A stretch of DNA of 64,000 nucleotides from Bimastos eiseni. Its lineage: Eukaryota > Annelida > Clitellata > Crassiclitellata > Lumbricidae. Below, piece after piece: positions 5,154-58,272 of this stretch. Each line of letters starts with the position of its first letter. Position 1 is the first letter of the stretch. A program made the position numbers and the translations under genes. The notes beneath the pieces were generated by a model. It was not told where the DNA came from and did no database searches. It worked only from the letters and a program-made list of their open reading frames with translations. Where the stretch lies: assembly GCA_959347315.1 (NCBI GenBank), contig OY365810.1, positions 14,643,461 to 14,707,460 of the forward strand, read 5' to 3'.

Positions 5154-5899
5154 TGACCCGTCAAAAGAGCGTCCGACAAAAGAGCGCCTGACAAACAGGC
5201 GCTTCTGTATGAATAAAATAATTCTTCCTATTATGAAAGTTGGATTGATGCAAAAAGTTATGCGAGGGAAGGGCCAGCGGGGCTGAGGCCCAGGTCCCAA
5301 ATGTGGAAAGAACGCACGCTTCAGGACGGAATAACTTATTATTCCATAAAATGCAGTATTTTCAAAATGTGGCAGCGCCAAATTGATGCTACGCACAGGG
5401 CGCAATTATATATCGCTCAGATATATAACTCGGTAAGGCCCTGCGTGAATGGAAGCTGGATTGATGAAAAGGAGTCTGCTTAAACAGAAGCTGTATTGGC
5501 GCATTTATTAATGAGCATAATTAGAAGAATGTTCACCGGATGTATAGAATTATGCTTCAGTGGAAGCGGGAATGATGATAACTTTTCTATTCAACAAGAA
5601 GGTGGACTGATGCAAATAATTCTCTTTAACTAGGGTTACTAGGGGCCTGATTGATGAAAAGAATTTGGCTCAAATGGAAGCGGGGTTGATGAAAAAATGT
5701 CTTAATTGCATGATTTATTTCATCAATCCAGCTTCCATTTCGACGCGATTCTTTTCATATCAATTTAGCACCTCTTCTAACGGAATTCTTTTCATTAATC
5801 CAGCTCCCATTTAAGCCAGAATTTTTTTTATCAGTCCAGCTTCTATTTCAAATTGTCTATGCGCTCTTTTGTCGGGTGCACTTTTGTCGGTGTGCCGGC
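5154..5899. mobile_element. TU-like foldback element, 15-mer 'GACAAAAGAGCGCCT' type
   Basis: Left arm is 15-bp units (GTCAAAAGAGCGTCC, GACAAAAGAGCGCCT). Right arm is the same word inverted (GCGCTCTTTTGTCGG, GTGCACTTTTGTCGG). The target duplication is ATTTAGCG (5146-5153) and AATTAGTG (5900-5907). The empty sites in unit 2 (ATTTAGTG) and unit 3 (ATTTAATG) confirm the insertion. Inside lies an inverted pair of arrays of a roughly 35-bp module based on GGAAGCTGGATTGATGAAAA, pointing right near 5450-5700 and left near 5720-5850, so the whole 746 bp can fold back. It carries no gene. TU elements of sea urchin have the same layout, as I remember it. Confidence 0.75.
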
Positions 5900-6648
5900 A
5901 ATTAGTGCTCTACACCGTCAAAACTGGAAGCGCTCCTTTAGAGACTTTCACTGAGAGTTTGCTGCTGAGAAATCGCCATGAATAAATTTATTCAAAACCT
6001 AAAGAGTAATCAAATTTTTCCCCATCCTGCACCGTACCATTGACAACGACGTAAAATCACACTCAGTTCATATTTTAATGATCGACAATTTCACATGTCA
6101 CATTCTGCAAATAATACATTGCCTAAACTACCATGCATTTGACTGTGATAGTAAATTGAAAAAACCGAGAACGCTTAATTAGAGTCGTGAATTAAACCGA
6201 ATTAAAGTAACACGTCATTCTTTGCAAAAATCTAACACAAAATAAAAGAGTAAACAAACCAGTGGATTGAAACCTAACTGATTCATGTATGTACATAAAC
6301 GTATTATATGAGTAAACTACAAATTTTAAAAGCGTACAAGTGATCTTAGTTAGCTAAACTCTTTGAGAAATGATATAAAAGTTAGTATACTAGCAAGTAT
6401 AAGCGTAATTGAAATTATAATTGTCACCTTTCTAAATTTATAGGCTTAGCATTACATACCTAGATCTACTTAAGCGAAATATTAGCATGTCTCTCATCAC
6501 ATCACACATGATTAGCAAGCACATGATATGTTCAATTATTAATAAACAAGTAGTTTGTATAACTTCATCCATCAACGTTTATAAAAATCATGATTGCATT
6601 AAGAAAGAGGTGCTGATCATATCCATGAAACATTTAGGTGGTTCTGAC

Positions 6649-7295
6649 TTATTTGAAAAATGAAATCTGACGTGGAGCCACTGGACATCTATCATTCCAC
6701 TCTCCACAGGGCCAAGTGTCTGATTTGGGGTCATGTGGCTTTAAACAGACGAAGCAGAAGGCGTACCCACACTTGCAGCTCATGTGCTTACATTTATCCG
6801 CGTGTTGAATCAAAGCACTGCACTTGACGCAGACTCGGGCGATCGGAACGTCGCTCACTTTACCAATTTTTTTGGTGCCACATGTTTCGAGGAACTCAAC
6901 ACGAGGATCCTTTCCGGGGCAACCGATGTTTCCGCATTTAGAATTTGAACTCGACTTCCAAGGCTTTAGACAGCACCAGCAGAACTCCATAGCTTTCCCG
7001 GCTCTATCTGAGCAAATCGTGCACCTGACGTAATATGGGTTCGCGAAATGCTTGGAGAAATCTCTCATGATTAAATTCTTGCATGTCGGACATCTGCGTA
7101 TCGTCAACTGCTGTGCAGTGTAGTTGTCGTTTAGCTTCTCGTTTAGTTTAATGAGCTCCTCATCTTCCATGCACTCACTTAGAACATGGCGTACAGCGTC
7201 ATAACTCCAACTAGCGTTGCACTTTTGACAAGAGAAGGAACAATTCTTTTCCGAATCTACCACTGTGTCGCAATAAGCTTTTAGAGCCTCAGTAC
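6649..7295 (-). CDS. Gene 1 exon F: RING1 end, IBR, catalytic Rcat, stop
   Basis: The acceptor AG is at 7297-7296, and the exon then reads (A)GT-ACT-GAG, continuing a phase-1 codon. It encodes about 214 residues. They contain FSCQKC (last RING1 ligands), RRCPTC...YYVRCTIC...EFCWCC (IBR), and VCVKC...HADKCKHMSCKCGYAFCFVC (Rcat), in which the Cys of ADKCKH is the expected catalytic thiol. It ends QISFFK-stop. The frame is open throughout and all zinc ligands seen in gene 3 are kept, which argues for selection until recently. Confidence 0.8.
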
Positions 7296-10200
7296 CTGAA
7301 AATTTATGAAAGAATATTTGGATATAGTCTAATTATAAAAGCTTACTACCCTTATATACAAGAAAGTACACCCTTCTGCACAGTGTGCAAAAATAGATTA
7401 GGCTTACTGTTTCTGCTTCTGCAGCAATTTTCATTGACAAACAAACCTTATTTAAGCTGAATTTGTTGTTCAACATTTAAGTCTTAGATTATGCAAAAGC
7501 CGAAAAGCTTAAGACTCCATCCGGATGCCAGATCATTGGACAAATCCGAAGTGTTTCATTAGAGCTTTGCACTCCTAACGATTGACTAGGCAATCGAAAC
7601 TGATTGGCCTAGAGTGTCACAGTCATAGTGCGAAATGGACATGCACTCCATATTCAACCATGAACATTATCATTTTTGCTTTATTAAAAAAACCAGTCAC
7701 TTTACATGACATGCCTCTGGCATGCAATGATCGTTCTAGCTAGTTAAGGATTGTCTTGCACGTTAGACAGGCTGTAATTAAGGGCGAATAATTGATTTAC
7801 ATACGTGCGGGCACCGTTGCCGAGATGTCAGAGGATGTTTATAACCTACGAATTATTATAGTCCTCTACGAAACGGTAATTGTGTAGGTTGATTGTGTTA
7901 GTCTTTCAATCACAATTTGCCAGCGCCATCGATTGATACTTATAGTGTCACCTAATGAATGTTAAAAAAAAATATTAAGAATTAGTAACGTATTCACAAT
8001 TTTCTATCGTAAGAATTGTCCAACAGTCTCTAAGAATAGTTCGCGTTCAAATTTTCTGCAGAATTAAATCGAAGATGTTTGACAGGCAAGTAAGTATTAA
8101 GTGACCTCGGTGGGAACCTCTAAAATACTGATCAATCAAGTCGCCAAATAATATTATTTAAAAACTCTATTGAGGGCTTTTATCTTAGTGTTCTAGGCGC
8201 ATGTCATTTTATCAGTCTATATTTCTGTCTTTCTGTTTGAGCTCTTTATGCAAATGAATGGTATTATCTTATGGGCCCCAGTTTTTGTACAAGCATACAA
8301 TACAAGAGAAATATGTTTCTATAAATATCCATTCTTCCAAATCTCTGAACAGGTTGACTGATAACAATAAGAAAGACAAATGTCAAGTAAGTTTGAATGC
8401 CTTATTCTATATGACTTTGACAGTAACGCTCGGAGTGGCGTTTCACACGATTGGCCTTCAGATTATATGGTGCACAAGAGCAATCTAGTCTTGCGGCTAT
8501 AATTATAGTGCAACATTAATTGTTAATATCAAAATATGTGACCAAAATATATTCGAAAGGAGCCTTTTAAAAGTTTAACTTGCAACTGTATTGTGATGTT
8601 GCAAATGTTTAGAATAATGCGTATAATGAAGGGCCAAACGAATGAATGAATATGTATATATACGAATAATAGGCCATGCTGATGAAGATGACAAAGGGCA
8701 CTCAGGGCAAAGAATGACTGAATGACTGTGTTATCCCAGAAAAGTTCTGGTGTGTCTAAAACATTCCACAGCAACACTGAATACTTAGGATCCTTCTCCT
8801 TTTTTGTTGATGTATTACATGATTTAATTAAACTCTTATACCGTTTCTGTTCTTCATTGCACAATTTGCACATTATAGATTTCAAGCTTACTTGGTAAGA
8901 CACCTAGACCTTGAGCGACCTCAAAATACTCATCAATCAATCTCAAATTTGGTGGAGGTAATAATAGGCAGTCATAGAAAAAAAAGTGAGTCGTAGAGCA
9001 CAATTCTTAGAAGTTCATTTTTAGACCACCTAACGAATATATTTATTCTCTTCTATTCTGAAATTTGATATCGTCCTTCTGCCAAAATTTTTGGCTCAGA
9101 AGTGCACACGCCTTAAAGGCGCAGTTGTACTGCAAAGCAATTGTGCGCGAAGCACTTGCTCAAGGTCCCTACACAGTGACGCCTCGGACGAGGGTCGAAC
9201 CCGCTCACTCAACGCACACTGAACATTACGGGTCAACCGCTCTAACCAACCGGCCACCGTGCCATGCAATATAATTATATATACAAACGTTGTTAAAATC
9301 TTTATAAAGCGGCTTGTGGAATTAATAATTATTACATCTTTAGAGACGTGATTATGTTCACACATTGGATCACTAGGAATAGTGTTAAGCCTGCATGGTT
9401 GGCAACCTACACATGTTTGTGCAAGACTATTGGTGCCTTCCTTTAGGATCTAGGAGGCGATGTATTTCTTATTAGTTATTTAATTAATACGATGGATATA
9501 TTCTCGTCGATTTCTCTTTCACACTCTCTCACTCTCGCTTTCTCTGTATCTACATGTACATAAATTTTTTATGTTTGTCTGCCTCTGTCTGTATTCTCTC
9601 TCTGTCTCTCTCACTCTCTCTGTCTCTCTCACTCTCTCTGTCTCTCTCACTCTCTCTGTCTCTCTCGCACACACACGCATTCTCTTTCCCCCCCTCTCTC
9701 TCTCTCTTTCCCTATTCCCCCTCTCTTTCTTCTTTCTCTCGATTAGTTTCCTGCCTTTGACCACCTGCATATTTTGATACGTTGTGCATTATGCCGGAGC
9801 GATAGAAAAGGTTGCAATTATCGATATTTGTGTTAAAGTTTTGCTGTTCTATTCTGCATTTATATATAGAGCGCATCTGTGCTTTGTCCTACTTTACTTG
9901 GTTGCTCGTTTGAGTGGAATTTTGGAAATAGTGGTTACTACGAGGCAGCGTAAGACTACGTGACTTAGGTTCCAAGTGTCGATTCATCTGAAGGAGAGTT
10001 CATAATGCGTATTATATCGTAATGTGGCTTAGTCGTGAATGTATACGTGAACATCTACTGGAGCTGGGTCCGTATGACTACGCTTGGACACCAGCCCATG
10101 GGGCAGAAGAACAACAACAACCCAGCATATAGGTAGTACATAAAACATGGAGCAAGCGCGGGACTTACTTCCTCCTGCATCTCAACGCATTGTCTTAAGC

Positions 10201-13200
10201 TCATTGTCTCGTTTAAATTATTGCTCAGATGACTCTTTACAGACTACTTATAAATTTACGTCAACAGAAGTCCACTTGCACTATGATTATTTTATAAATT
10301 CATCTTCTGCTAACACTAGTAGTGCTTCATTAATATTGCATTACCTGCATCACATGATTTTTCTCATAGACTTTATAATTATCACAACTGAAATGATGCT
10401 TACTGTATACACATCCGCAAGTCATCTTATAGCAAACGTCCCCTTCTACATAGTCGTCAAATATGCAGCACTTTTCTTTGGAAGGTGTTGGAAGTGCAGC
10501 TTTTGCAGCCGTCTTAGCTTTTCCGATGGATTCGATTAGCACATGGAGAACATCATTACGGTTCCATTCGATCGAGCATACTTTGCAGAATAACCGAGGA
10601 TTTGTCAGTTTTCCTCTGTACATGTAAGTGCTTAAAGCCGTAGTGCCTGCAAAATTAATATGAAAGAATCTTATAACTAATATAAAATTTATCCTCGTAA
10701 GCTTAAGAAGTGCAGTATGCTACTCATGTCGATGTGCATAAAATGATAACCGTCGTGATTTAGACTAAATGATAATTGTCATTTTATAACATAAATTGAA
10801 TGCCGATTCTGCTTCAATGGAGATTTTAGTGCAAAGAGAAACCCAACTAAATTTTAATCTAGGTTTGAGCCTGTTAGCTGATTGGCCTAGAGTGACGCAG
10901 CCATGTAATTTAAATGAATGTGTGCAACAAAAAATAGTAATTTTCTCACAAATTCAGTCTTTACTTTAGCTTTAATCATTCATCAGTTCGCCGCCTTCTT
11001 GCAGTCTTGCACTATGATGTTTCCATCAATAGCCGACACAGTCCACTTGCACTATGATTGTTTTATAAATTCATCTTCTGCTAACACTAGTAGTGCTTCA
11101 TTAATATTGCATTACTTGCAACACATGATTTTTCTCATCAATCCAGCTTCTACTCAGAAAATTATTTTTTTCATAAAATCAGCTCCAATTTCGCCGCATA
11201 TATTTTCCGTCAATCAATTTCTACTTGCACTATGCGTTTTTCATCAACCCAGCTCTTCTTCTTACAACATTTTGTAATTATTTTTTATCTACTTACGCTA
11301 TAACATCGCTTCATCAATGCAACCTGCATTTACCCTGTAACATGCATTCTCAATTCCAACTGCCATTTAGCATGGATTAATTTTGTCAATGCAACTTCTG
11401 GATATATGAAAGCAATCCTGCTTCAATAGAAGCTCGATTCATTAAAGAATTTTTCAATAGTTCCAACTTCTAATTAAGAGCTACTTAATTCTATCATCAG
11501 TCCGGCTTCTGAGGAATAACTAAAGGATTCTGCTGAAATTGAAGCTGGATGGTCTAAGACAAAGGTTGTCAAAATTTGTGTATTTATGCTGCTGAATTTT
11601 ACCGACATTTCCTTTACCTCGTTTGGCTTACAGACCGACTTTTCGGCTACAGACTTTATATTGGAGATTGGTCTCCAGGGCCATAAACCTGTCTCAGGTC
11701 TGCAACAACTACCGCAAGGAGTCCACATGAAAGCAGTTTCCTCCTTCTCAGTTGTCAGGTACGTGTCGACAAAACACCTGCTGCTCACCAAGCAAGACTT
11801 GCTGCTGACGTCATGTGGGCGTTTTGTCCCACCTTCCCCTATATTATGAATATTTAAATCATGTTGATTTTGATTGGTGTGAGCAATTGACTAAATGGCT
11901 GCGCGGAAGTGCTTGTAGGAAAAGAGTTCCGCTAAAATGGATGCGGGATTGATGAAAAGAGGCTTTAACTAGAAGCCGGATTGATGAAGAAATTTCTGCC
12001 AAAATGGAAGCTAAAATAATCAAAATATTTGTGCCTAATGCAAGCTGGAATGATGAACCTTCGGTATCAGAGGCTTTCACCTCTGGACGTTTCACCTCTA
12101 GGGGCTTTCACCTCTAGGGGCTTTCACCTCAACTATCAAATTAAAGACTGACGCGCAAACAATGCGATTACCATGACACTAATAAGCAAAATGTTATAGA
12201 ATGTCACAGTTATTGCAATACAGCATTTCGAAGCAAGGTATGCAAACATTCAAATAGGCTAAAGCACGAGATTTAATCATACCCCACTGATGCGCATACA
12301 ATGCGACTATCGTGACACTAATAAGTAGGCAACGTAAATCGGGCTGTTGGCGGTTACGGAAGTACTGACTTTCTAACATTTTTGAAGGCGATCCCTCACC
12401 TTTCTCATGCTTAATCACCTTTTGGACAGTAAATCGAAGTTATTGCGATTACGGAAGAGGGATAACATTTAATACTTTTCTTAATGTGTCTATTTACAGT
12501 TCATTGCTTATGCTTATGCTAAATAATTTTGCTTTGCTTCTTATATATTACTTATGTACAATTCAATGACAATCTCCATCGAAATTTCACTTTACATGTC
12601 TATAAATTATGCAATCCCCAGGAGGTGAAAGCCCCTAGATGTGAAAGTCCCTAGAGGTGAAAGTCCCTAAAGGTGAATCGTCCGGTGGTGAAACGCCCGG
12701 AGGTGAAAGCCCCAAGAGGTGAAAGGTCCGGAGGTGAAACGTCCGGTGGTGAAAGCCTCTGGAACCGAACCTTCGAGTAAAACATAATTATTTTATGGAA
12801 CCTTTATGAGTTATAGGCCCAAGCTATTAATTCTGCACATGTCATCAACCATGTCGGTCGATTGATCGAATGCTGCGTCATTTTGATGAATTTTTCATCT
12901 ATGTGCAAAATTTACTCAGCAGTTTTTAACATGTTGGAGTTCACCAGTGCTAGGTTTGCGGTTCAGTCTCGTTCGTCGGCTTTGTCAAGGACTTTGAGCG
13001 TACATTTTGTGTGATAGGGTGTTTACCAGAGGTTACCAGCAAGAGGTTACCAGCAAGAGGTTACCAGCAAGAGGTTACCAGCAAGAGGTTACCAGCAAGA
13101 GGTTACCAGCAAGAGGTTACCAGCAAGAGGCTACCAGCAAGAGGTTACCAGCAAGAGGTTACCAGCAAGGGCATTATATTGCCACGTGGCGGGAACACGG

Positions 13201-16200: not shown

Positions 16201-18831
16201 CATCTCCAAATATAACCTCTTCTTCGCTTTCACTATCCTCTGCCACTTTCCATTAGGTCAACGATTGATCAACGGGCGATTGGTCAACGGGCGATTGATC
16301 AACGGACGATTGGTCACATACGATTGGTCAACGGACGATTGGTCAACGGACGATTGGTCACAGACGATTGATCAACAGACGATTAGGCAACGGACGATTT
16401 GATCACATACGATTGATCAACGAACGATTGGTCAACGGACGATTGGTCACAGACGATTGATCAATGGAGAATTGGTCAATGGACGATTGGTCATAGAAGA
16501 TTGGTCAAAGAAGATTGGTCAAAAGATGGTTGGTCAAAGGACGATTGGTCACAGACGATTGATCATCGGACGATTAGGCAACGGACGATTGGTCAAAGAC
16601 GATTGATCAACGGACGGTTGTTCAAAGAAGATTGGTCAACGGACGATTGGTCAACGAACGATTTGGTCACATACGATTGATCACCGGACGATTAGCCAAC
16701 GGACGATTGATCACAGACGATTGATCAACGGACGATTATTCAAACAGACTGTTCGTCATGGAGATTGTTGATCAAGGGTCCATTCGTCAAGAAGACGGAT
16801 GATCAGAAATTTAAATTTTAGAGGCTGGAGATGCTTGTAAACTACACGTATGTCAGTTCTCCTATCAGAGCAAACAATTGCACTGGCACAGATATACGAA
16901 AAAATAAAATCGACGACCACTAATTACATATGTCATATGCCTTCATTAGTGCAAATAAAAAGTCAGGTTGATCATAAACTATAAACTTTATAGCTTCGTT
17001 GTTTGCTTTATGAACTATATACTTTATAACCTCATTGCTTGCTTTATTAAATATATACTTTATAAAAGGTCAAATGTTGAAACGAATATTTTCTAGAACA
17101 CTTCATTGATTGCTTAAAAACGGACGAATGATCAACAGTCCTCTTGACGAATGGTCGGCTTGACCAATCGCCTATTGACCAATTGTCCGTTATCGACCGT
17201 GCGTTGAGCAAACGTCCGCATGCCAAAAAATCAATAATTTAATTACTTAAATGTGTACTTATTTTTTATTATTTTTATTTTATTACCGAATTTTGATAAC
17301 GCCCATCTTCCAACATTTTTTGCTCAGAAGTGCATACAAAAAATATTTATATTTGCATGCACACGCCTCGACGGCGCAATTGCAGTTGTACTGCAGCAAC
17401 GGTACGCGAAGGACTTGCTCAACTGACTGATGCCCCGGACGAGTCTCGAACCCGCGAGCTTAAAGCGGATTTTGTGCTCCGTGCATATTGTGACGGATAT
17501 GGACTGTTGGGACAAGTACTAACACGACAATGATGTCTTGGAAAGCGTCGTAAGATTCCCTAGTCAAGTCTGGGGCAAAGACTAGCGTTTGCTGCCAAAT
17601 GAAGCCGATTTTTGCCACTTTATTTTACCAACTCTACATTTGTTTATTGTACATTACACCTGTTTAAGTCATGCATAACGTTTGAAATAATAGCATTATT
17701 AGTTTAGCCATATCACAAAAATAATTGATATAAATAAGTCAGTGAAAGGTCGAGTGTATATGATACAGTAAATGATTGCAGCTACAACACACAAGGATAT
17801 ACATGTATTGTATCTGTAACTTGAGCAAACACGACCAATTTCATTCATCATGTTATCAAGTGGTATAATCTTAGATCAATTCGACAAGAAGCACCAGTGA
17901 CAAAATAATGATCGATTCAAAGTGAATGCTAATATGAAGTTAGACTGGCTGGTTCAAAACAGAGAAGGAAAGTTTAAAATATTTTGAAAATGCTATGAAA
18001 TCATGCTAGATCTACCTACGGTCTTGGTCATGTTCCTGGATCACTCGGTCTTGGTCTTGGTATTCAATATTTGATCTTGTTGCCCAACACTGCTCTGGGC
18101 ACATTCTTCTGGGCCCTTCTGCTATCGTATTTTTTAGTTCTGCTAAACGACCTTTTATCGCTGTGACTATGGCGGTCGCAGCCACCATTACACAGAAAAC
18201 CATATCCAACGTTAATAATATGAACGTCAACAAGCAATTCGATATTCACCAAAATGGCGGATGCCAAATCCAAATTAGTCTGTTACGTCACTGTGCAAAC
18301 ACTCCATACTTAGGAGTTTTCTAAATCCGGGCGCAGAGCAAGAGAGACTGACTGACTTGCTAACACTCGGACACCCAGTACCCATAAGGCATGCTTTCAG
18401 ATCACTACTTTAACAGAAGCATAGAAACTAATTTAAAATAAAATTAGTCGATGCCCGAGCATTGGAAAAGACATTCGTCATAAGCTATGTCATTTCCTTA
18501 CTGCCACTTGTTGGATTCTTCTACCGTCAAAGGACAAAGCACCAGCAGAACTAAACCGCAATTTGGCCAATGTCAAGTTTAGTGTGTATTTAAGCCTATG
18601 ATAACAGATAATTTAAAACTCGAAAGAATAAGACTGCCTCAAGACTTCAATAGGATAGCGTTTATGATAATAGGATAGCGTTTACCTAAATATCACAGAG
18701 AAACGGCTCACCGTGATAAATAGCAGTGAAACTCGCGTCTTCGTTGTCAAGTACCTCTTCCCGCAGACGCTTGAATAACTCGTGCACCTGTGCGCACTGT
18801 AATTGTTTTTACAAAGAAGCAAAACTGCGAA
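6649..18831 (-). CDS. Gene 1: UBL-RBR E3 ubiquitin ligase with a predicted duplicated RING1
   Basis: Four minus-strand exons in the order U 18831-18712, M 14331-14071, H 10646-10404, F 7295-6649. Every join is phase 1, with GT donors and AG acceptors. Predicted order of domains is UBL (ending ALGGG), RING1a (end of M plus start of H), RING1b (end of H plus start of F), IBR, Rcat. RBR ligases pass ubiquitin from E2 to a catalytic Cys in Rcat and then to substrate. That Cys is present here (HADKCKHMSC). Relative to gene 3 there is one extra exon, H. The U exon has an in-frame TAA (see its entry), so the first exon may be unused, spliced differently, or the gene may be dying. No start exon was found. 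Family assignment is secure from the cysteine pattern; expression and integrity are not. Confidence 0.7.
7296..9060. other. Intron of gene 1 (H to F), lower part
   Basis: No coding exon seen. The stretch 7480-7990 aligns with 32240-32700 and 51060-51560 of the other units (shared words 'CTGGACAAAT', 'TTAGAGCCTT', 'GTGCGAAATGGACATGCACTC'). Beyond about 8000 unit 1 diverges from the other two. Confidence 0.5.
9061..9262 (-). mobile_element. tRNA-derived SINE, near full length
   Basis: Read on the minus strand it starts GGCCGGTTGGTTAGAGCGGT (box A-like) and has GGTTCGACCC (box B) about 45 bp on, then a shared body '...TGTGTAGGGACCTTGAGCAAGT...' and the tail 'TGCACTTCTGAGCCAAAAAT'. The same family is found at 59388-59605, 56575-56765, 17286-17530 and a fragment at 39905-39960. 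The head is tRNA-like but is not a functional tRNA gene. Confidence 0.8.
9596..9735. repeat. CT-rich minisatellite, 18-bp unit
   Basis: Four copies of the 18-mer TCTCTCTGTCTCTCTCAC, followed by simpler CT-rich sequence. The Ser/Leu-rich frames across it are artefacts of the repeat. Confidence 0.9.
10262..10375. repeat. Direct repeat, copy 1, beside exon H
   Basis: About 110 bp starting 'GTCCACTTGCACTATGATT' and ending 'ACATGATTTTTCTCAT', nearly identical to 11033-11145. The two copies bracket exon H of gene 1. Confidence 0.85.
10404..10646 (-). CDS. Gene 1 exon H: chimeric RING1 exon (F start fused to M end)
   Basis: The acceptor is TTTTGCAG at 10654-10647 and the donor is A|GTAAGC at 10404/10403. 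The exon is 243 nt, phase 1 to phase 1, so it adds 81 residues without shifting the frame. Its first third (TALSTYMY...FCKVCSIEW...VLHVL) aligns with the start of exon F (SFSCQKCNASW...VRHVL). Its second part (LPTPSKEKCCIF...CYKMTCGCVYS) aligns with the end of exon M (IPTPSKEKCCIL...CYKMPCGCVYS). The intron just upstream (10650-10920) also resembles the intron upstream of exon F. No equivalent exon exists in genes 2 and 3. The simplest origin is a deletion that joined exon F of one tandem gene to exon M of the next. Confidence 0.75.
11033..11145. repeat. Direct repeat, copy 2, other side of exon H
   Basis: Partner of 10262-10375. It runs straight into a 'CATCAATCCAGCTTC' internal module of foldback type at 11135. 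Confidence 0.85.
11135..12054. repeat. Array of the 35-bp foldback inner module
   Basis: Left part (11135-11520) carries the module as CATCAATCCAGCTTC. Right part (11925-12054) carries the reverse orientation, GGATTGATGAAAAG. Between them, at about 11580-11860, is unrelated sequence. The same module makes the inner arms of the elements at 5154-5899 and 21014-21757, so this is probably an element that lost or rearranged its outer ends, into whose right side the element at 12063 was inserted. Confidence 0.55.
12063..12766. mobile_element. TU-like foldback element, 15/16-mer 'GGTGAAAGCCCCTAGA' type
   Basis: Bounded by a perfect 8-bp target duplication GAACCTTC (12055-12062 and 12767-12774). Termini are GGTATC at the left and GGAACC (inverted GGTTCC) at the right, followed inward by CAGAGGCTTTCACC in both arms. 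The left arm has four units of TTTCACCTCTAGGGGC type. The right arm has about nine units (GGTGAAAGTCCCTAGA, GGTGAAACGTCCGGT). The middle is non-coding and contains its own direct repeat around 12152 and 12292 ('ACAATGCGA...GTGACACTAATAAG'). Confidence 0.85.
12840..13890. repeat. Dispersed repeat, copy in unit 1
   Basis: Homologous to 62400-63190 (shared 'AACATGTTGGAGTT', 'TGACCTTGACCGATAGT'-like, 'ACACACGACGA', 'CCAGTGCAGAGAGCG'). It lies between gene 1 exons M and H, but in unit 3 the same sequence lies far upstream of the gene, so it is displaced. A 99-codon open frame (13520-13813) shares a pattern with 62838-63074 (LPPV...HRVCQR...PIDATWPR). I do not recognise it. Confidence 0.6.
13022..13170. 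repeat. 15-bp tandem array GGTTACCAGCAAGAG
   Basis: About nine and a half nearly perfect copies; only one unit shows a T-to-C change. The period is the same as in the foldback outer arms, but no inverted partner was found nearby, so it is a lone arm or a young expansion. Open frames across it are repeat artefacts. Confidence 0.95.
14071..14331 (-). CDS. Gene 1 exon M: second half of UBL, Gly linker, first half of RING1a
   Basis: The acceptor TTTTTAG ends at 14332 and the donor is TATATA|GTAAGC. The exon is 261 nt, phase 1 to 1. It encodes RAIDEDQEGDIETLGMRNL, then DLAIKALGGGNRFS, where ALGGG marks the end of a ubiquitin-like fold, then a linker 13 residues longer than in genes 2 and 3, then EKCCILGADAAEDVCYKMPC and GCVY. 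The split codon joins to exon U as Gly and to the next exon as Ser. Confidence 0.75.
14332..15079. other. Intron of gene 1 (U to M), non-coding
   Basis: No exon or element recognised. The first 150 bp upstream of exon M align with the equivalent intron of units 2 and 3. Confidence 0.4.
15080..16170 (+). pseudogene. Decayed protein-primed type B DNA polymerase gene of a virus-like DNA transposon
   Basis: Open frame 15080-15463 contains YKPLKSSPYIPLPN, KKAIINMKNEDEECFKWC and SRALNPVEK. This is a region found N-terminal to the polymerase domain in polymerase proteins of Polinton/Maverick-like and related virus-like elements. A stop follows at 15461-15463. Fragments in other frames follow: LLISDGERNYYCWIKN and a Cys/His motif (CSQH) at 15599-15829, then YMDLNTELRS near 16064 and, one frame over, MNNSVFGKACENIENHV near 16103-16155, a polymerase B palm signature. 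At least two stops, two frameshifts and an internal deletion (about 15830-15950) break it, and the C-terminal catalytic part is missing. No capsid or integrase gene is seen beside it. The family is recognised from motifs; the exact element type is inference. Confidence 0.7.
16253..17222. mobile_element. TU-like foldback element, 15-mer 'ACGGACGATTGGTCA' type
   Basis: Left arm, about 16255-16765, is more than 30 copies of a 15-bp unit (GGACGATTGGTCAAC and variants with GATCA or CACA). Right arm, about 17105-17215, carries the inverted word (TTGACCAATCGCCTA, TTGACCAATTGTCCG). The arms are very unequal. The middle (16800-17100) is AT-rich and has no open frame. I could not find a target duplication. 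The left end begins at GGTCAACGATTG, in line with the GGT termini of the other elements. Confidence 0.65.
17286..17530 (-). mobile_element. tRNA-derived SINE, diverged copy
   Basis: On the minus strand it shows GGGTTCGAGACTCGTCC (box B region), 'TTGAGCAAGTCCTTCGCG' and the tail 'TGCACTTCTGAGCAAAAAAT', matching 59388-59605. About 25 bp of AT-rich sequence interrupts the body near 17330-17355, and the 5' head is poorly preserved. Confidence 0.7.
17531..18700. other. Intron of gene 1 (U to M), upper part
   Basis: No coding signal. Short repeats 'GGTCTTGGTC' near 18020-18055 are simple sequence. Nothing else recognised. Confidence 0.4.
18712..18831 (-). pseudogene. Gene 1 exon U: first part of UBL, with in-frame stop
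   Basis: Same length (120 nt), phase and splice sites (CCAACAG acceptor, G|GTGAGC donor) as exon U of gene 3. It encodes QVHELFKRLREEVLDNEDAS then FTAIYHG, a ubiquitin-like helix and strand. Upstream of this, a TAA codon replaces the TCC (Ser) of gene 3, eleven codons before VHELF is fully under way. Either gene 1 is inactivated here, or a downstream acceptor such as TTACAG is used. I cannot tell these apart from the sequence. Confidence 0.6.
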
Positions 18832-20975: not shown

Positions 20976-21013
20976 TGTAGCTGAGTTGGCTAGGATGCGA
21001 CGGTGAACCAGGG

Positions 21014-21757
21014 CGGTACGGGACGTTTTGGCGTAGCCGTTTTGGCGCAGGACGTTTTGGCGCAGATATCTGATACAATAATATTGTATATTATATATTT
21101 GGCCTTTATAAATATGTTCTACGACAATCTACCACTTTAGTATCGTAAATTATCCCCCGTGACAAATCAGGAAAAGCTTCTGGAGCGTCGATAATAGAAG
21201 AGGGATCGGTGAAAAGAATCATGTTCAACAGTTACTAAAAGCTGGATCAATGTAAAGGATACGGCTAAACTGTGAGCTTGATTGACGAAAAGAATAATGC
21301 TTAAATGGAAGCTGGAATGATGAAAATGGTCATACTTAAATGGTCGCTGGATTTATGAAAAGAATTATGATTAATTAAAGTTGGATTGATGAAAATAATC
21401 ATGCCTAAATGGACGCTGGATTGATGAAGAATATAATGCTTGAATAGAAGCTGGATTGATGGAAAATAATGCAGTTTTATTTTAAGCGGAGTTGATGAAA
21501 AGATTGTGACTAAAAGAGTTCAACAACGAGTAGAAATCTCATATTCATCCCGCTTCCATTTAAGCATGATTATTTTCATCATTCCACTTCCCAGTTTAGT
21601 ATAACTATTTTCATCGATCATGCTTAACATTACATTATATATTGTATCATTTTATATATCTGCGTCAAAACATCCTCCGCCAAAACGGCGCTGCGCCAGA
21701 ACGTTCTACGCCAAAACGGCTCCGCCAAAACGGCTGCGCCAAAGCGTCCTGCTCCGG
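21014..21757. mobile_element. TU-like foldback element, 15-mer 'GGACGTTTTGGCGCA' type
   Basis: Left terminus CGGTACGGGACGTTTTGGCG and right terminus (inverted) CGGAGCAGGACGCTTTGGCG match at 16 of 20. Target duplication AACCAGGG (21006-21013) and AACAAGGG (21758-21765). Outer arms are about three 15-bp units at left and about six at right (GCCAAAACGGCTCC words). Inside, inverted arrays of the GGAAGCTGGATTGATGAAAA module run right (21240-21500) then left (21540-21620). This is the same middle as the element at 5154 under quite different outer ends. Confidence 0.8.
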
Positions 21758-21784
21758 AACAAGGGATCTGGCTTAAAAAATACC

Positions 21785-23289: not shown

Positions 23290-24370
23290 TAACCCGTGAA
23301 AAAAATCACAGGTCGTATTTAATCTTAGCCTTACATTGCACGATGTAACACTCAGCTAGTGTTGTTATTGTCATTTTTACACATATCATGTGATGAACTT
23401 TCGACCGCTTTCCGTGCTTTGAAAAACTGAAATTTCGACCGCAGAAGCTCCACTCAATTATAAAAAATGCTAAATACATGTGGACGAAACGGGTTTTAAA
23501 TAGACTAAAATACACATTTACCGATTTAAGATTCCATTTTTAATGATAATTGATGGAATTATACTTACATTACACGATGCATAACTAACTCATAAACAGG
23601 TGACTTAGGTAATTATCCCTGTTTATTATTATTATTATTAGATTCATCATCATCGTGGTCGTTACCGACATCATCAACATCATCATCATCGTCATCATTG
23701 AAGTTGCTGTTATTGCTGTGTGTTTCTATGACCATTTGATCTTGCTCGTTTTATAATAATTTTCTCCGTTACGGAGCTCTGGTGATCATTAGAGTCTAGA
23801 GATTTTTATTTAAAACAGAATTTACCGTTAGGCCTACTCATGATTTGTTGATGTTGTCGGAAAATTATGGTCCTTTTGTCATCAGTATCAAGCTTCAAGT
23901 GATTCCTGAATCATAGCACATACCGGATGCTTATACATGATTTTGTTCATATCAAAGCTACTTTATTGTTAATCTTTACTTAAGATGTTTATAAAAAGTT
24001 TCAGAGATTATAAATAATTTCATAAGTTGTTTTATTTTACAAAATAGCATAACAACGAAAGAAGCAAGCAGAACAGTTCTGGAAAGTACACGCTTAAAGA
24101 GTTTTGCCATTGAGCAGCTTACTTCTGCGAATGTGGTAACTTTGTTTAACGAATATTCTAACGAAACTGGGGATGCGGTTATCAACTGTAGCCTTTCTGA
24201 TCACCTTGACGTTGGCTGATCAACCACAAAATATCTGTAATTCTAGTCCCGTATTATTATAACGCCTATTAAATCTACGTGCTCGAAAATAATCTAGATT
24301 AGCATAATGCCATGATCAAATAGAATGATGTCCTGTTTAGAAGCAATTATTAAAGACAAGAGTACAACCC
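23290..24370. other. Duplicated non-coding sequence with (ATC)n patch
   Basis: An ATC-rich patch lies at 23640-23700. From about 23810 the sequence aligns with 40210-40330 and 57380-57480 of units 2 and 3. No exon recognised. Confidence 0.45.
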
Positions 24371-24377
24371 TTGTATG

Positions 24378-24540
24378 GTTTAATACTATCAAAGGGGCGA
24401 TTTCGCAAGGGCGACCATGAAAATATCGCATTCAAAAGGGCGAGTCGGCGACAATCAAAATGGCGCATGCTTAAAACGGACGACGACAGGAAGAGCGCGC
24501 AAGCAAAAAGACGGCAATCGAAAAGGCGAGTAAGTTGACA
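24378..24540. repeat. Single TU-like outer arm, 15-bp units of AAAAGGGCGAGTCGG type
   Basis: About ten degenerate 15-bp steps with an A-rich then GGCGA core (AAGGGCGACCATGAA, AGGGCGAGTCGGCGA, CAATCAAAATGGCGC). No inverted partner was recognised within 1 kb. It is present only in unit 1. Confidence 0.5.
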
Positions 24541-25971
24541 GTTCAAAGAAGTAACCCTTGAACTGTGTAATGTACACCATTAGGCCTAATTCATGGACTC
24601 AACATGCGGGACTAGAGTGACAGATATTTGGTTGTAGATCATCCATTGTCAAAAGATCATAAAGGTATGAATTGTAGCAGGACAAGAATAAGTTAGGAGT
24701 CTAGAATACATTCGATGAATGCCTGATGGTCAATAGAGTCGGTGAGACGGAAAGAATGACCGGGAGAAGTCTAGCAAAAAGCCTTAATTTATGGGACGAA
24801 AGTAATGGTCAGGTAGAGGCCGAGATTCGATAAACAAAGGGTACAGAAGCAGGGAATTGTCGGACGTTTGTGGTATTTAGACAGGTTAGAGTATTGGAAC
24901 GGACTCGTCAACTCCAGAGATAGATCCATGCTGAAAATCAGGTACGACGTCTAAACGGTGACGCCGAGGTTGAGGAAATTAAGTGAATGCCAAAATGAAA
25001 CGTGTCTACACGGTATACATATGTCTCTGGAGAAATTGATATGTCACATTCTCCTACATTCCAAAACATTTCGATTGGTGCTTTTGACATTTTAAACACT
25101 TCCACCGTGTTTTACCTAATTCATTCTTTACAACCTGTTGTCACTTTATAAATAAAGACCTTCAAATACGTCAATCTATTATCGATTTTTAGGAACATTA
25201 ATTACGTACCTGATTAACTCAGATTACCTAACAATAATTTGGGGCAGGTTATTAACCAAAGCGTTTTAGACGAATAGTCGCAAAGGCGATGCGCTATAAT
25301 GCCTATGAGATTTTAGTTATGTTTCGGCGTGACCATCTCAACCTGATTGCGCACTTTCTCTATCGCCAAAATTACCGGTATGCAATAATTTCTAAGTAAC
25401 CATGATCTGATTCAACCACGGTGTCTATGCACTCACTAATTGTTGTCATTATATCAACCATTTACTGTGGTTCCAACCACATAGGCGTGAGCTAATAATG
25501 AATATAGGCTCCGGCCAGAGTCCATTATTATATTATAAGAATCTGTTGAGACCGACGTTAATACTCTTGAAGGCCCATTTCACTTAGGCCTACCTTGTAC
25601 TCCGCGGTATCGTATACCACTCATGTTATTATAAATATCACATTCGATGGAGATCAATAAAACGCATTGATTAATTGATTGAAACATCTCACTTGGATGT
25701 ATATCCTGTATATATAAATATATCTCTCCTTAATGATATTCTCAGATCAGAAAGGCTTCCACGCATCCAGAATGAGTTTCTGCCCGAAGGCAGGACCATT
25801 CATTGGCTTTATCCCACCTGGGGATGAGATGAATGAGGTGGTTTTCCGTTGCCTTCTTCACGTACAATAATGGGTATCAACTTGTTCAAGGTCGATACTC
25901 AAGGTCCGTACAGTTTCAGTTCCATCACCATCACTGCCTGTCATCCAACATCATCTGTTCCAAGCTCCCCT

Positions 25972-28450: not shown

Positions 28451-29682
28451 TAGTCTAGTAAATGACGCCACTCTAAGTAGTTGGGGTATTTACTGATTTT
28501 ATTGTTTGATTGTCTTACTTTTATTGATTATAAATTTAGACATTTCTGCAAGATGTCTGGTGTTTACTTTCCTTCCTTCACCTAACAGTACCTATGCAGT
28601 TAAGCTCGTCTCAGCAAAACAATCCCATAAACCACACCGTGAATTCACCTTGAATTCCCAATTTTAAAAAGTATGCAGTGACTTTTGTTAATTACTGACC
28701 GTGATTTTTTGTAGGCCTGTTGCCCAATTTATACGTCTAATCAATATTTCCAACCATATGAATAAGTGCCGGAACGCTAAGTAGAGATTAAGTGTTACAA
28801 CTGATGTGACAATAAGTAGTGTTCCGGCTCGTCTATACACAACAAGTAGTGAAAGGTCACTCTTTCACTTATCTAATTATGACATTTAGTGTTGTGGACT
28901 ATCAGGACTCGTTGTACTCCGATGGATGTTTTTACTGAATGTTTGATGCTGAGAAATTGCCGGGAATAAATGTCTTCAATACACAAACAGTTATAGAAGT
29001 TTGTGTTCTTCCTTTCTACGTACATTGTGTCATTGGTCACAACGAAAAATTACACTAGACTCTTTAAATTACGACCCACAATTTTATATGTCACATTCTG
29101 CAGATAGTAGCCTACATAGCCTAATAATATCCTAGTCACACTAGGCCCCGATCTTACAACGCTCCCATCACGCTCGTAAAGCGTGGTGGAAACGTGTAGA
29201 ACGCAGTAGAACCGCAGTTCGATCTTCTATGAACGTATTGCAATCGCGATCGAGCGTGGCGCCGTCTCCATGAGCGTGGAGCGCGTGGCCCAATTTTGAA
29301 CATGTTCAAAAAGACGTGGTGCGAGCGTGGCGGCAAGAAACGCAGTGCGAGCGCATTTGAGCGTAATAGAAACGGGGCGAGCGTAGTACCGACGTATGTC
29401 GAGCGTAGTGCGAACTTAATTAATGATCGTATTGCAAACGTGTTGGAGGTCGTAAAAATTGTCTTCCCGATCTGAGCACAATGTCGTTAATTTTACATCA
29501 CGTCCACGGCGATGTCCCTGCATCCTGACCACGCTGTCGCTATGACCATAATGCGTCGCCGTCAGGCTCGACCCGTTCGTAATAAGCTTGTGCAACGCTC
29601 AACGCGCGCAGACAACGCCGCTGTGACGTTCTCGTAACGTATAACCTGTATCACGCTCATTTCGACCACTATGATCTTGTGG

Positions 29683-29689
29683 TATAAAT
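29683..29689 (+). promoter_or_regulatory. TATA box inside the long-TIR element
   Basis: TATAAAT about 58 bp upstream of the ATG at 29747, in the middle segment of the transposon; a plausible internal promoter. Confidence 0.4.
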
Positions 29690-29746
29690 TGGGGTGCAAC
29701 ACAAATAGTAGTGTCAGCATTGGATGAAACAAAATAGGATCACGCC

Positions 29747-29869
29747 ATGTTACTTCTTCAAGGACAACTCGAATCCCTGGAATGCCAAGCCATCATCATG
29801 CTGAGGAGGAGGAGGATGCAGGACTGTATGCTACGATTAAGAGGGACGCGTGGTCTAAAACGCCTTTGA
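29747..29869 (+). CDS. Short ORF in the long-TIR element, function unknown
   Basis: 40 codons from ATG, beginning MLLLQGQLESLECQAI, then a basic run LRRRRMQD, ending at TGA. It sits behind a TATA box and ahead of AATAAA at about 30095. An Arg-rich N-terminus is common in Harbinger-type nucleases, so this may be the stub of a transposase gene left after an internal deletion. That is inference only. Confidence 0.3.
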   Translation: MLLLQGQLESLECQAIIMLRRRRMQDCMLRLRGTRGLKRL

Positions 29870-30653
29870 CGGTGAACAATGGACACATAATGATATAATA
29901 GGATAATGGAATATTTATTGTACATAAGTGATTGGAGGTGTTGTGCTGCACTGCATTGATTGTGGTGATATTAGTAGTAGTAGTTTTAAATTTTTAAGAT
30001 ACGTGTGCAATGCTAGCATGATGATGATTATTTGGAGAGGTGTTTGTCATGCCATGTGAAGTAATTTAAGCTGTATTTCTGAAATATGAATTGAAATAAA
30101 AACTGTCTGAGGTTGCGATGTTTGCATCACTTTGCCTGCGGTATGAGAGGATAATTAGTCGTTTATTTTCATATATATATATATGTAAATACATACATAC
30201 ATGAATGCATGCATAAATACAAATGCGGCATTGTCTGCGCACGTTAAGCGTTACGCAATCGTATTACGAACGGGTCGAGCTTGTCAGCGACATATTATTG
30301 TCATAACGAGAGCGTGGTCAGGTCGCAGGGACATCCCCGTGAGCGTGGTGTAAAAGTTACGACATCGTGCTCAGATCGGGAAGCCATTTTTACGACCTCC
30401 AACACGCTCAAACGCGCTCGAACTGCGCTTCTTTCCGTCACGCTCGCACAACGCTTTTTTTAACATGTTCAAAATTTGGTCAGGCGCTCCACGCTCATGG
30501 TGACGGCGCCACGCTCGATCGCGATTGTAATACGTTCATAGAAGATCGAACTGCGATTCTACTGCGTTTATACTGCGATTCTACTACGCTCTACACGTTT
30601 CCACCACGCTCTACGAGCGTGATGGGAGCGTTGTGAGATCGGGGCCTAGTGTG

Positions 30654-50198: not shown

Positions 50199-50839
50199 TT
50201 ATTTTAAAAGTGAACTCTGACGTGGAGCCACTGGACATCTAGCCTTGTAACTTCCGCAATTCCTTGTTCTTTTGTCAAGTGGCTCTAAACAGATGAAGCA
50301 GAAGGCGTACCCACACTTGCACGTCATGTGCTTGCATTTGTCCGCGTGTTGAATCAGTGCATTGCATTTGGCGCAGGCACGGGCGATCGGAACGCCGCTC
50401 ACTTTACCAATTGTTTTGGTGCCACATGTTTCAAGGAACTCAACACGAGGATCCTTTTCGGGGCAACCAGTGTTTCCGCAAGATTTGCTTAGACTCGATT
50501 GCCAAGGTTTCAAGCAGCACCAGCAGAACTCCACTTCTCTTCCGGTTCTGTTGGTGCAAATCGTGCACTTGACGTAATATGGGTTCGCGAAATGCTTGGA
50601 GAAATCTCTCATGATTAAATTGTTGCACGTCGGACATCTGCGAATGGTCAACTGCTTTGCAACGTAGTTGTCGTTCAGCTTCTCGTTTAGCTTAATGAGC
50701 TCATCATCTTCCATGGACTTACATAGAACATGGCGAACAGCGTTATAACTCCAGCTGGTGAAGCAAGATTGGCAGGAGAAAGTAAAATTCTTTTCCGTAT
50801 TTATCACTGTGTCGCAGTAACTTTTTAGAGCCATGGTGC
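50199..50839 (-). CDS. Gene 3 exon F: RING1 end, IBR, Rcat, stop
   Basis: Acceptor TGTTCAG before GC-ACC-ATG; with the A left from exon M the join reads Ser-Thr-Met. The in-frame ATG at 50834 is internal, not the start. The frame is open to TAA at 50201-50199. Best template for judging damage in the other copies. Confidence 0.88.
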
Positions 50840-53800
50840 CTGAACAGTAATGAACAAAATCTTTCGATAAATGTTCATTTATAAATAATAATCCTCATGC
50901 TAAAAAAGCACACCACTCTACATATACTTAAATGGACTATCGTGATTATTTGGACTCAATGCTGACCGTTATGATATTTTGGTGGCGCTCATGACACAGT
51001 TGAGCGCCGTTTTTGTTTCGGTAGCGACTGTCATGAAAGGCAGCACTTAATTATTTTAACTGAATTTTTGTCGATAAGCTGTTCAGCCTCGGAGTCTATG
51101 TTATATAACGCTAAAGCCAAGAAGCTCTAGGCTCCTTCCAGAGGACAGACGACTGGACAAATCCGGCTCATTAGAGCCTTGCACTCTTCACAATTGGCCG
51201 TTAGGTGACAGTCATTTAATGCGAATTGGATACGCACTCCAATTCAAGAACAAAGATTTAAAAAAACTTTTTACGAAGCAAACAGTTTACAGTACAAGAC
51301 ATACTTGTATCCCTGTAATGTAGAGATTTCCATAGCACTTTTGAGGATTGTTGTACATATTAAGCAGGTTGTCACTCTTGGACACGGATGCTGATTGGTT
51401 GGAGGTGGAAAGTACGGATCCCTGCGTCCTCAGAGACGGTAACACCGGTAGGGTGCTTGAGCAATCATTTCACTCGCGATTGGTCAGCGTTATCGATCGA
51501 TGACTGGTCAAAATTATAGTGGAGCCTAATATGCGCAATAATAATAGTTTTGATAATTAATGACGGATTCGCAATTTTCTATGGCAAGAATTGCCCAACA
51601 GTCCGACACGAAGGTCTGTTTTGCAACACACTGAAACTAAAGCTTTCGAGTTTGAGACAGAGGACTCTGTGACAAGCATGAATACGTTTTTTGCACATTA
51701 TACATGTACATATACGTCTCCTCCAAGAAGTGATAGAATGTTTGATACCAGCATGAGCTGCTATCAAAACGAATTATAAGTCCCATAAAAAAGCAAATCA
51801 TCTAAATAGTAGGCTAACCGTAAACTCCAAACTTGCAAAGCACACGTCACTCGAAAGTTGAGCGCAGAGTATCTATCTGTAGCGGATTTCTCCCTCTCCA
51901 ACTCCTTCTTCTAGATGACGAGAGTACCGCCGGTTCTTTCCTCTATCACCAAGCTCAGCAACACGATACACTTGATGGTTTTAATATGTATATTTAATGA
52001 TATATACACACCACTCATCCGATCTACACTTACAGGAGTTATTAGTGTCCTTTTAGAACTGTTTCCCTGGTTTACGTTGGAGACGGGATTCCCAACTACG
52101 TTGATACCCTTGTCGTCAGAACGACCTAGCGTCTCCCCCAGTTCCGAAACAAATCCCCGTTCCTTTGCTTGCTACGCTATATTAATCCTTCTAGAGGCGA
52201 TTTCCTTCGTCATCCCAAACGCAAAACTCGTATCTCTATTGGATGACAGGTCACCTGCAGAAACCATTACCAAACCCTGGTTGGTCGGGTCTTGGCGTCC
52301 CTAGCGTAACGTCAGATCCCTAGGGGCGTACAGTTACTGTTTGACTAGCGGTTGTTATGGCTGGGTCTTATTAGTGTCATTGAATTCCATTACTGCAGTT
52401 ATACCGCCTAACAGATTACGCCGTTCATATCGGAATTGTTCCCTATTCATGATCCGTGTCAACGGGCCGGTTCAAACCAGATTTTCAGCTGGTTGACGAA
52501 TTTCTTGTCCATGGGTCGCAGAGGAGGTAGGGGCAGGTGCCTCTAACGTCTGCCTCGAGGTGTCGGGTTTCGTTGCTTGACACTCCGTCTGTACTGAGGC
52601 CGTCGGCCTCCAGCGAAACCCATTGAGGTCTCCTTTCTCAGGTCTCAGGTAGACACCTTCATCCGTAGTCCTCTCTCACCTGTGCTGCCGGTCGAGGAAT
52701 TTTATATAACGCCATCGTCCAGAGTGTCGTGCGTGACAGTATCGCTTTCATGAGTGCTACGCCAAGTTAGAAGAATTTTTAAAAGTGTAGTCTAAAGGAG
52801 GTCCAAGTTTGGTTGCAGGAGGTTCAGATCAAGCGAGGTGTAGCAGCTGTAAGATGGGTGTCATGCGAAGTATTTGCGTGGTCACGCTTCCAGGACATTC
52901 TAATTTCTCCTTGCTGGCTCCATAGCTTGTGAACAGGAAATTGAGCGCATCTTGTGCGTCGTACCACGGCAATCAAGTATAGGACATAGCAGATTTTTCA
53001 CGAGAATGGACTTACAAAAAGTAATCTTAGATGATATCCGTGTGCAAAGTTTGTGAAACAAGCATAGTCCATAGAATTTGCTAGGTGCGGTTCGCAATAC
53101 GGACACGAGTGTAGCTAGACTAGGCCCACTAAACTGGAATGGTTCTGATTGACTTCCAAACCGCTATGATATTCACATTGCAAAATTTAACAGGTATTTG
53201 AGTAACAAAAAAACGCAATTACTGATATGTTGCTTACTGTATGGGCATCCGCAAAGCATCTTATAGCAATCGTCTTCTTCTCCATCGTCGCCTAATATGC
53301 AGCACTTCTCTGCTGTAGGTGTTGGAAGTATAGTCTTGTTGCCTATCGACGAATGGCTACCACCGCCTCCAAGGGCTTTGATGGCCAAATCGATAGTATC
53401 CAAATTTCGCATCCCTAAGGACTCGATATCGCCTCTTTCATTTTCCTCAAGTGACCGCCCTAGAAATAACGTTAATTAATCAATCGCTGCAACGTTGTCT
53501 CTAATTGCATATTTTGAGTCAGCTCGATTTGTTCAAAATTATTCGACAAATTATTACTTGAAACCTACCTTGTGGTATTCTTATGTCCCAATTCGGTTAT
53601 ACTCGCGCCATTTGTTAATTGCTGAATGCAGTCAGCTTACAGCTAACCAATGAAATTAATTAACTATTCAGTATCAGTTAGCCTACTTGAAACTTTCTCG
53701 CGCGATTATTTAAAGCATTTTAACAGTGTCAGCTCTGAACATTGCTTTTCAGCTTTAATGATACAACGGGGTATAACTTATTTGGCCAATGCATTAGAAT

Positions 53801-56876: not shown

Positions 56877-56937
56877 CAGTAGGCCTACTTTTAAGACGTA
56901 GGCCTACTTCAAGACGTAGGCCTACTCTAGTAAGCCT
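56877..56937. repeat. Three tandem units around TAGGCCTAC
   Basis: AGTAGGCCTACTTTTAAGAC, GTAGGCCTACTTCAAGAC, GTAGGCCTACTCTAGTAAG: three copies of about 20 bp, each centred on the palindrome TAGGCCTA. Unit 2 has only 'GCAGTACTTTTAAGACGTAC' here (39430-39450). Confidence 0.85.
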
Positions 56938-57489: not shown

Positions 57490-57527
57490 TAGAATATATA
57501 TATATATATATTATATATATATATATT
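57490..57527. repeat. (AT)n microsatellite
   Basis: AT repeat with one TT interruption. Confidence 0.93.
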
Positions 57528-57731
57528 GCTTATGGTTGCTTCAAATCTCAATAAAACTGTTTCCAAATTTCAAAGCCTTTTATATTAATCTTCGTTTTCA
57601 TTCATTAAATGGCAAACCATGCACGCTAATAGTGTTCTGCCATGAAACAGCGAATGTGGTGATCTGCGTTTAATAAAGAAATTTATAAGGCAAATGGTGA
57701 TCTGATTATCGAGACATACAAAGAAGGTACT

Positions 57732-58272
57732 GGTTCTACGTCATTTGATTCTCCGTCTGTTGCTCCCCCTTCAGTTGCTCCCCGGTCAATTGATCCTCTG
57801 CCTATAGAACCCAGCTCAATCGATACAACATTCATGTTCCACTCGCGACCTTCTCCATTTATTAAAGGAACGGTGTAAAGAGCACAAAATGTTAACTTAA
57901 AATTATTTTTAAAAATATAAAAACGTAATTGAGAGTCATGATATGATTAGTTTATCAGCATAAAGTCCTAAGTATAAGCGTCTATACATGGGATAAATGA
58001 GCCATTGCTCTGGGATATAAAAGAATCTCCGAACGGTCGTAATCGATTACAGCGCGGAGTGACACGAAGCATGGACATTAATTTGTTTTTTGTAACGTTA
58101 TTTTGCAATCTGTAAAATCAATCTTCTACTTACTAACAGTATCAGCCTGACGCATAGCTTAGAGATTTGAATGGATCAATTGACGAGAGGATCAATTGAC
58201 TAGGGGACCAATTGACGGGGAGAGGTCAACTGACGGGGGATCAACTGACGGGGATCAATTGACGCGATACCG
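57732..58272. mobile_element. TU-like foldback element, 15-mer 'GGATCAATTGACGGG' type
   Basis: Target duplication AAGGTACT (57724-57731) and AAAGTACT (58273-58280); unit 2 has the empty site GCGAAAGTATTCAC near 40605. Left arm from 57743 is six exact 15-bp steps (CATTTGATTCTCCGT, CTGTTGCTCCCCCTT, CAGTTGCTCCCCGGT, CAATTGATCCTCTGC and two more). Right arm from 58171 is six steps of the inverted word (GGATCAATTGACTAG, GGGACCAATTGACGG, GGGATCAACTGACGG). Ends are GGTTC and, inverted, GGTATC. The 300-bp middle has no open frame. Confidence 0.85.

Follow-up and report, generated by a model that had tools for sequence, protein, structure and literature searches.

Foldback elements with family-specific tandem words in Bimastos eiseni: probable derivatives of related FLYWCH-type MULE families

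A 64,000-nucleotide stretch of the Bimastos eiseni genome (contig OY365810.1; the whole stretch is called the window below) carries five elements whose inverted arms are built from tandem words of 14-16 bp, and each element has a word of its own. What kind of transposon, if any one kind, do they come from? A sequence-only reading of the window had proposed a family of foldback transposons resembling the TU elements of sea urchins, in which period and layout are conserved and sequence is not. TU elements are foldback transposons with 15-bp outer repeats and 8-bp target duplications, and to our knowledge they are unclassified. The window elements share with them the 15-bp outer repeats in inverted arms, a likeness of description, not of aligned sequence. 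Our analyses point to the window elements being non-autonomous derivatives of several related families of Mutator-like elements (MULEs) of the FLYWCH type ("type 2 foldback" elements), a reading to which we assign a probability of about 0.87.

The proposed inverted arms were borne out in all five elements, with periods of 14-16 bp:

E1, 5152..5896, unstranded, foldback element; word GACAAAAGAGCGCCC; arrays 5157-5202 and 5853-5895
E2, 12063..12766, unstranded, foldback element; word GACGTTTCACCTCCG / GGGGCTTTCACCTCTA; arrays 12069-12130 and 12610-12763; ends GGTATCAG and GGTTCCAG
E3, about 16253..17224, unstranded, foldback element; word GACGATTGGTCAACG; left array 16261-16790, right array 17129-17226; right end GGCATGCG, left end uncertain
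E4, 21014..21756, unstranded, foldback element; word GACGTTTTGGCGCAG; arrays 21021-21065 and 21660-21755
E5, 57732..58271, unstranded, foldback element; word GTCAATTGATCCCCC; arrays 57736-57798 and 58173-58264; ends GGTTCTAC and GGTATCGC
Nested dispersed repeat inside E1, 5263..5444, unstranded; many 82-91% matches, confined to query positions 110-293

As in Tm1-like (type 2) foldback elements, an asymmetric outer motif is followed by 14-16-bp tandem units whose number varies from arm to arm. The outer ends of E1 (GGCACC/CGTGAC) and E4 (CGGTAC/CGGAGC) are less GGTATC-like than those of the other families. Applied to the window and to 200 kb of other sequence, a word-free scan for matching arms with an 8-9 bp duplication re-detected E2, E4 and E5 and missed E1 because the E1 duplication has two mismatches. 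The remaining hits in the window lay inside the E3 arrays or inside a palindrome at 29134-30656, and those in the comparison loci L023, L027 and L028 have the appearance of other palindromes or simple repeats. The palindrome at 29134-30656 is a 1.5-kb element with arm segments that are 84-94% complementary and with short GAGCGTGG-like words; its flanks are symmetric, not duplicated, and it is another foldback type. A 35-bp repeat, GCTGGATTGATGAAAAGAATAATGCTTAAATGGAA, occurs in both orientations at 5455-5840 (in E1), 21200-21623 (in E4) and 11113-12009 (adjoining E2); it is common to E1 and E4 despite their differing outer words and had 0 matches in a reversed-window control.

Duplications of 8-9 bp flank four of the five elements, and the proposal of foldback transposons of one layout was upheld:

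E1 left duplication, 5143..5151, unstranded: GACATTTAG; right copy 5897-5905, GGCAATTAG, 7/9 matching
E2 left duplication, 12055..12062, unstranded: GAACCTTC, exact; right copy 12767-12774
E4 left duplication, 21005..21013, unstranded: GAACCAGGG; right copy 21757-21765, GAACAAGGG
E5 left duplication, 57723..57731, unstranded: GAAGGTACT; right copy 58272-58280, GAAAGTACT

The E1 pair is not the top-scoring candidate; the end that it implies for E1 falls where other E1 copies also end. At the window E3 a convincing flanking duplication was looked for and none was found. Among copies elsewhere in the genome, and judged by eye, exact 9-bp duplications flank the E1 copies L002 and L003, the others have weaker ones, and L006 lacks a right end. 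For E2, allowing duplications of 8-9 bp and a 1-nt slide of the ends, all 12 copies have a duplication matching at 7/8 or better: 10 reach at least 8/9, seven of them exactly, and the other two reach 7/8, vs 0 of 5511 mismatched left/right flank pairs reaching 8/9. For E5, a duplication with at most one mismatch flanks 10 of 14 copies, compared to 2 of 182 mismatched pairs, and is absent from L042, L047, L049 and L052 (4/14).

E1, E2, E3 and E5 are dispersed. Plain DNA searches over the host genome (660 Mb in 118 contigs, 40 candidates being scored per query) gave at least 81 matching pieces for E1 (40 of 3398 candidates scored), at least 198 for E2 (40 of 169), at least 121 for E3 (40 of 255) and at least 142 for E5 (40 of 815). 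Many of the E1 matches fall on the nested repeat and not on E1 proper. Contrary to the expectation that homology searches would overlook such elements, these four each give many DNA matches, though a search with one family does not retrieve another. Each of the eight E1 loci fetched (the window copy and seven others) carries GACAAAAGAGCGC units with at most two mismatches, 1-6 per arm, on one side only in L006. The ends of all 12 E2 copies fetched are GGTATC and GGTTCC or close to them, with L037 the most divergent, and the E5 copies end in GGTATCGC and GGTTCTAC or variants, with one end poorly placed in L047; E2 and E5 therefore combine different words with the same unequal end pair. Matches to the window E3 run at 67-89% across arrays and middle in the search alignments, among the 40 candidates scored. 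The word marks the family: it is unchanged in the E1, E2 and E5 copies read, and E3 copies match across their arrays. The claim that the outer word differs in every element is thus correct inside the window and fails among copies of one family, where the word is constant.

Gene-bearing relatives supplied the superfamily. The Pfam MULE profile PF10551 has 93 matches in the genome, and we read ten MULE loci, picked for long frames and not at random, with L054 chosen for its nearness to an E2 copy. Inverted arrays of 14-16 bp surround the gene at eight of the ten (L054, L055, L057 and L059-L063), or seven of nine when L054 is set aside; L056 and L058 have no such arrays within the 6 kb read. The eight array-bearing loci represent four families: L054, with the E2 word; L055; L057/L059/L061/L062; and L060/L063. 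The L055 element (1759-4255) has the ends GGTATGCG adjoining GACGATTCATCC and GATTTGGG adjoining GACGATTCGTCC, an exact flanking duplication, GAAAAACT, and a single open frame of 480 aa with FLYWCH and MULE domains. This frame is one of 11 among the PF10551 matches that measure 476-480 aa and score 44.6-49.5 bits, which suggests a recent spread (L055 is the one read). L059 has the ends GGTATCCT / GGTTTACT and an exact duplication, ATTTATCCC; L054 is flanked by a CGCCTATGG/CACCTATGG duplication; at L057 a flanking duplication was looked for and not found. Duplications in the 8-10 bp range taken as a mark of MULEs are therefore present at E2 and E5 copies, L055 and L059, and not at E3. The GG ends and the duplications of 8-9 bp had brought Merlin and hAT into consideration; both were dropped once the gene-bearing copies proved to be MULEs.

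Specifically, L054 joins the E2 word and E2 ends to a decayed transposase that is 48-56% identical to that of L055, and the window E2, a deletion derivative, aligns with L054 on either side of an internal deletion at 94% and 81%. Two of the window elements retain a piece of the gene (E values from tblastn against the window):

Transposase C-terminus remnant in E2, 12325..12408, plus strand: L055 residues 452-479, 61% identity, E 3e-5, 28 codons
Transposase C-terminus remnant in E5, 57988..58056, minus strand: L055 residues 457-479, 57% identity, E 0.004, 23 codons

At E 1e-3 the C-terminal piece was found in 3 of 12 E2 copies and 5 of 14 other E5 copies. The same tblastn search with the L055 transposase gave no recognisable remnant in E1, E3 or E4. 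Among the ten loci read, a MULE/DDE transposase between the same arms was found for the E2 family only (L054); for E5 the link is the C-terminal remnant. The FLYWCH profile scored above the Pfam cut-off in L055, L057, L059, L061 and L062 and below it in L060; L056, L058, the L054 fragment and L063, whose frame has a later start, gave no match to it. The closest transposases of different families, those of L054 and L055 (about 50% identical), go with the closest words, which agree at 12/15 when E2 is represented by the GACG form of its word, and transposase pairs at 30-39% identity go with words that agree at 2-7 of 14-15 positions. These four families give a hint, and only that, of word distance following transposase distance.

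The words themselves are less unrelated than they look. In E1-E5 the word starts 8 nt in from the duplication-side end (for E3 counted from the right end, which was chosen by eye), and in this register the words read GACAAAAGAGCGCCC (E1), GACGTTTCACCTCCG (E2), GACGATTGGTCAACG (E3), GACGTTTTGGCGCAG (E4) and GTCAATTGATCCCCC (E5). The first E2 unit is a variant, and the phase of this word is clearest in the second. In most families the outer 8 nt are GGTATC-like, and the word mostly opens with GAC. The view that period and layout are conserved and sequence is not was therefore not supported: the outer 8 nt and the GAC word start are also shared, in a fixed register. The summed identity of the five words, 82, is the largest of 810000 phase/strand combinations, and without E3 the largest of 27000, values that are descriptive since the test was devised after the words had been aligned by eye. 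Other choices of the E2 word weaken the result, to 23 and 128 of 810000 combinations and, without E3, to 172 of 27000. When the words were crudely compared and allowed to rotate freely, no likeness emerged (sum 78; P 0.16 and 0.25); only the end-fixed register revealed it.

Fairer tests of the register come from words taken up afterwards. The L055 word scored 51 and ranked 1 of 30 rotations and strands, as did the word of the nematode element Tm1 with a score of 42 (its 14-bp motif was entered as 15 letters, GA being taken from motif B), and the L059 family word scored 29 and ranked 2 of 30, that is, not best. The seven families jointly reached 165, vs a maximum of 145 among 2 million random phasings. 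By eye, L060 and L063 begin to diverge just before GGTATCAC adjoining GACAAAATGTTCAC, the same register. Among 14 ends of E1-E5, L055, L059 and L060, G occupies position 1 in 11 and position 2 in 13. The last two positions are among the loosest of the unit in E1, E2, E3 and E5, with E2 also loose at 2-4; a loose terminal spacer was not seen in the 10 units of E4. We found no statement of a common register in the available portions of the open-licence accounts of Tm1 and Muta, a remark about those texts and not a claim that it is unpublished.

These observations fit the following scheme. Each family has asymmetric, mostly GGTATC-like outer ends followed, from 8 nt in, by head-to-tail units of 14-16 bp. 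MULEs move by cut-and-paste through a DDE transposase that makes staggered target cuts, and here the enzyme, which carries a FLYWCH zinc finger at its N-terminus and a DDE core, may cut at the shared ends and join them to the target with a stagger of 8-9 bp. The tandem units would most likely be binding sites of the FLYWCH finger, with some 12-13 firmer positions and 2-3 loose ones as a spacer. Loss of the gene by deletion would leave arms and ends, as in the window elements, and the word may drift with its transposase until each family has its own. For E1, E3 and E4 we infer a MULE origin from layout, duplications and register, E3 contributing no convincing duplication.

How unusual is the window? 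In 200 kb sampled from C1-C5 as twenty 10-kb stretches, 31 arrays of period 13-17 reached a score of at least 50 and 14 reached at least 60, two of the latter being paired; one convincing inverted pair was present, another E5 copy, together with one weak A+T-rich pair. Five elements per 64 kb vs one convincing pair per 200 kb therefore amounts to local crowding. The unpaired majority in the sample counts against the suggestion that the family is far larger than apparent. It also goes part of the way toward the lack of excess inverted pairing that had been named as refuting the family. In the window, 10 of the 12 arrays of period 13-17 that score at least 60 are arms of E1-E5. Those window arms speak against, and the dispersed copies with duplications and fixed ends already contradict, the notion that the arrays are ordinary minisatellites paired by chance, to which we give almost no credence; in its favor are the mostly unpaired arrays of the sample and the expansion of E3-word arrays into long one-sided blocks, such as the matches over about 3.2 kb at C11:6618292-6621468. 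An E5 arm likewise matches over about 1.2 kb at C7:19402875-19404110, and transposon ends are perhaps turning into satellites at such sites. The two lone arms reported at 13022 and 24378 fared differently:

13028-13169, 14-bp minisatellite AGAGGTTACCAGCA, 10 copies, 98% matches
24374..24551, plus strand, degenerate one-armed array flanked by exact AACCCTTG (24366-24373 and 24552-24559)

The first is a plain minisatellite, because of its 14-bp unit, its 98% matches and the lack of an inverted partner, which was sought within the window. The second stands as one-armed and is probably a worn end B of the L057/L059 family (GGTTTA..CTATCAAA..GGGCG), judging by eye from the likeness of its left end. 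Elsewhere in the window, three similar cysteine-rich stretches lie on the minus strand (6652-7332, 31361-32043 and 50202-50894), the first and last matching the IBR domain of RBR ubiquitin ligases and the similarity of the three suggesting a local gene family. The window also contains TAGGCCTA 29 times and AGGCCT 39 times, vs about 9 expected from base composition.

Descent from related MULE families has also to be set against convergence, in which foldback transposons of independent origin, from several superfamilies (hAT, P, Merlin, Mutator), would have arrived at one array layout. Galileo, of the P superfamily, also has foldback-like, internally repetitive inverted ends in the accounts available to us, and therefore layout alone does not prove kinship; the ends of E1 and E4, furthest from GGTATC, lean the same way. 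Against convergence stand the end pair GGTATC / GGTTYN common to E2, E5 and L059, words that share one register, and the pieces of a single type of transposase retained by E2 and E5; we regard it as very improbable. A less remote contender, which we still consider unlikely, concerns what the arrays do: they could serve the host, as protein-binding sites or a chromatin mark, with the transposase using the outer 8 nt only and the register being simple inheritance. Outer ends that are alike in several families and the array-less MULE loci L056 and L058 would suit this. Against it, gene-bearing copies have arrays at each end, and FLYWCH, a DNA-binding finger that may recognise them, is present in most of their transposases. 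We thus retain the derivation from FLYWCH-type MULEs, with the arrays as the likely finger sites.

With this derivation, foldback elements that seemed alike in layout only acquire a superfamily and gene-bearing relatives, and words that look unrelated can hide a common register. Such a register would make co-evolution of word and finger testable; if the two change together, the many families within one genome become a data set on the divergence of a finger and its site. The arrays also appear to grow into long blocks, by which a transposon end might become a satellite. More tentatively, and at somewhat less than even odds in our view, animal FLYWCH-MULEs in general, sea urchin TU elements included, may follow one end grammar: a GGTATC-like end of about 8 nt, GAC, and a fast-changing half-word every 14-16 bp that the FLYWCH finger would read, so that genomes like this one would hold a natural finger-word series.

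Comparison with known systems, as far as the available portions of the published accounts describe them, places the window elements within a known kind. Tetris of Drosophila virilis has long composite inverted ends with tandem repeats and 8-10 bp duplications, its authors suggest Mutator, and the title speaks of satellite building blocks; unlike the families here, it has other repeat units and no transposase was found for it (PMC4079207). The same report cites the TU elements of Strongylocentrotus purpuratus. In a tabulation of MULE groups, FLYWCH and duplications of 8-10 bp are listed for some of the groups, and echinoderm MULEs are mentioned in another clade (PMC6446971). The Muta1-Muta14 MULEs of Aedes aegypti have 8-9 bp duplications and, in 10 of 12 long-TIR families, subterminal tandem repeats of 9-15 bp; Muta5 has an 8-bp end motif and nine 15-bp repeats, FLYWCH is predicted in 13 families, gene-less derivatives exist, and some families have little nucleotide similarity to each other (PMC5225508). 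The 12-bp units and 3-4 bp spacers of Muta1 recall the loose last positions of the E1, E2, E3 and E5 words. The host is a different one, and the likeness to Muta1-Muta14 is by description, the letters of the units being absent from the main text (PMC5225508). Tm1 of Meloidogyne, a Mutator/Foldback family, has duplications of 9 bp (range 8-10) and end motifs of 7 bp that are asymmetric and followed by GGA and a mostly 14-bp tandem motif, CGATTCAGTATCGC, in variable number; it also has a gene-bearing copy with a MULE transposase (PMC3169594). Its anatomy is the same, and its top-ranked word phase against the window words is the shared register. It differs in being one family with one word (one letter apart between two nematode species), whereas here eight words occur in a single genome, and in its outer ends, CGGTTAA / CCTACCC, those here being nearer GGTATC. 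On these published descriptions, Tm1 and the Muta families share the anatomy of the window elements, which are thus of a kind already known.
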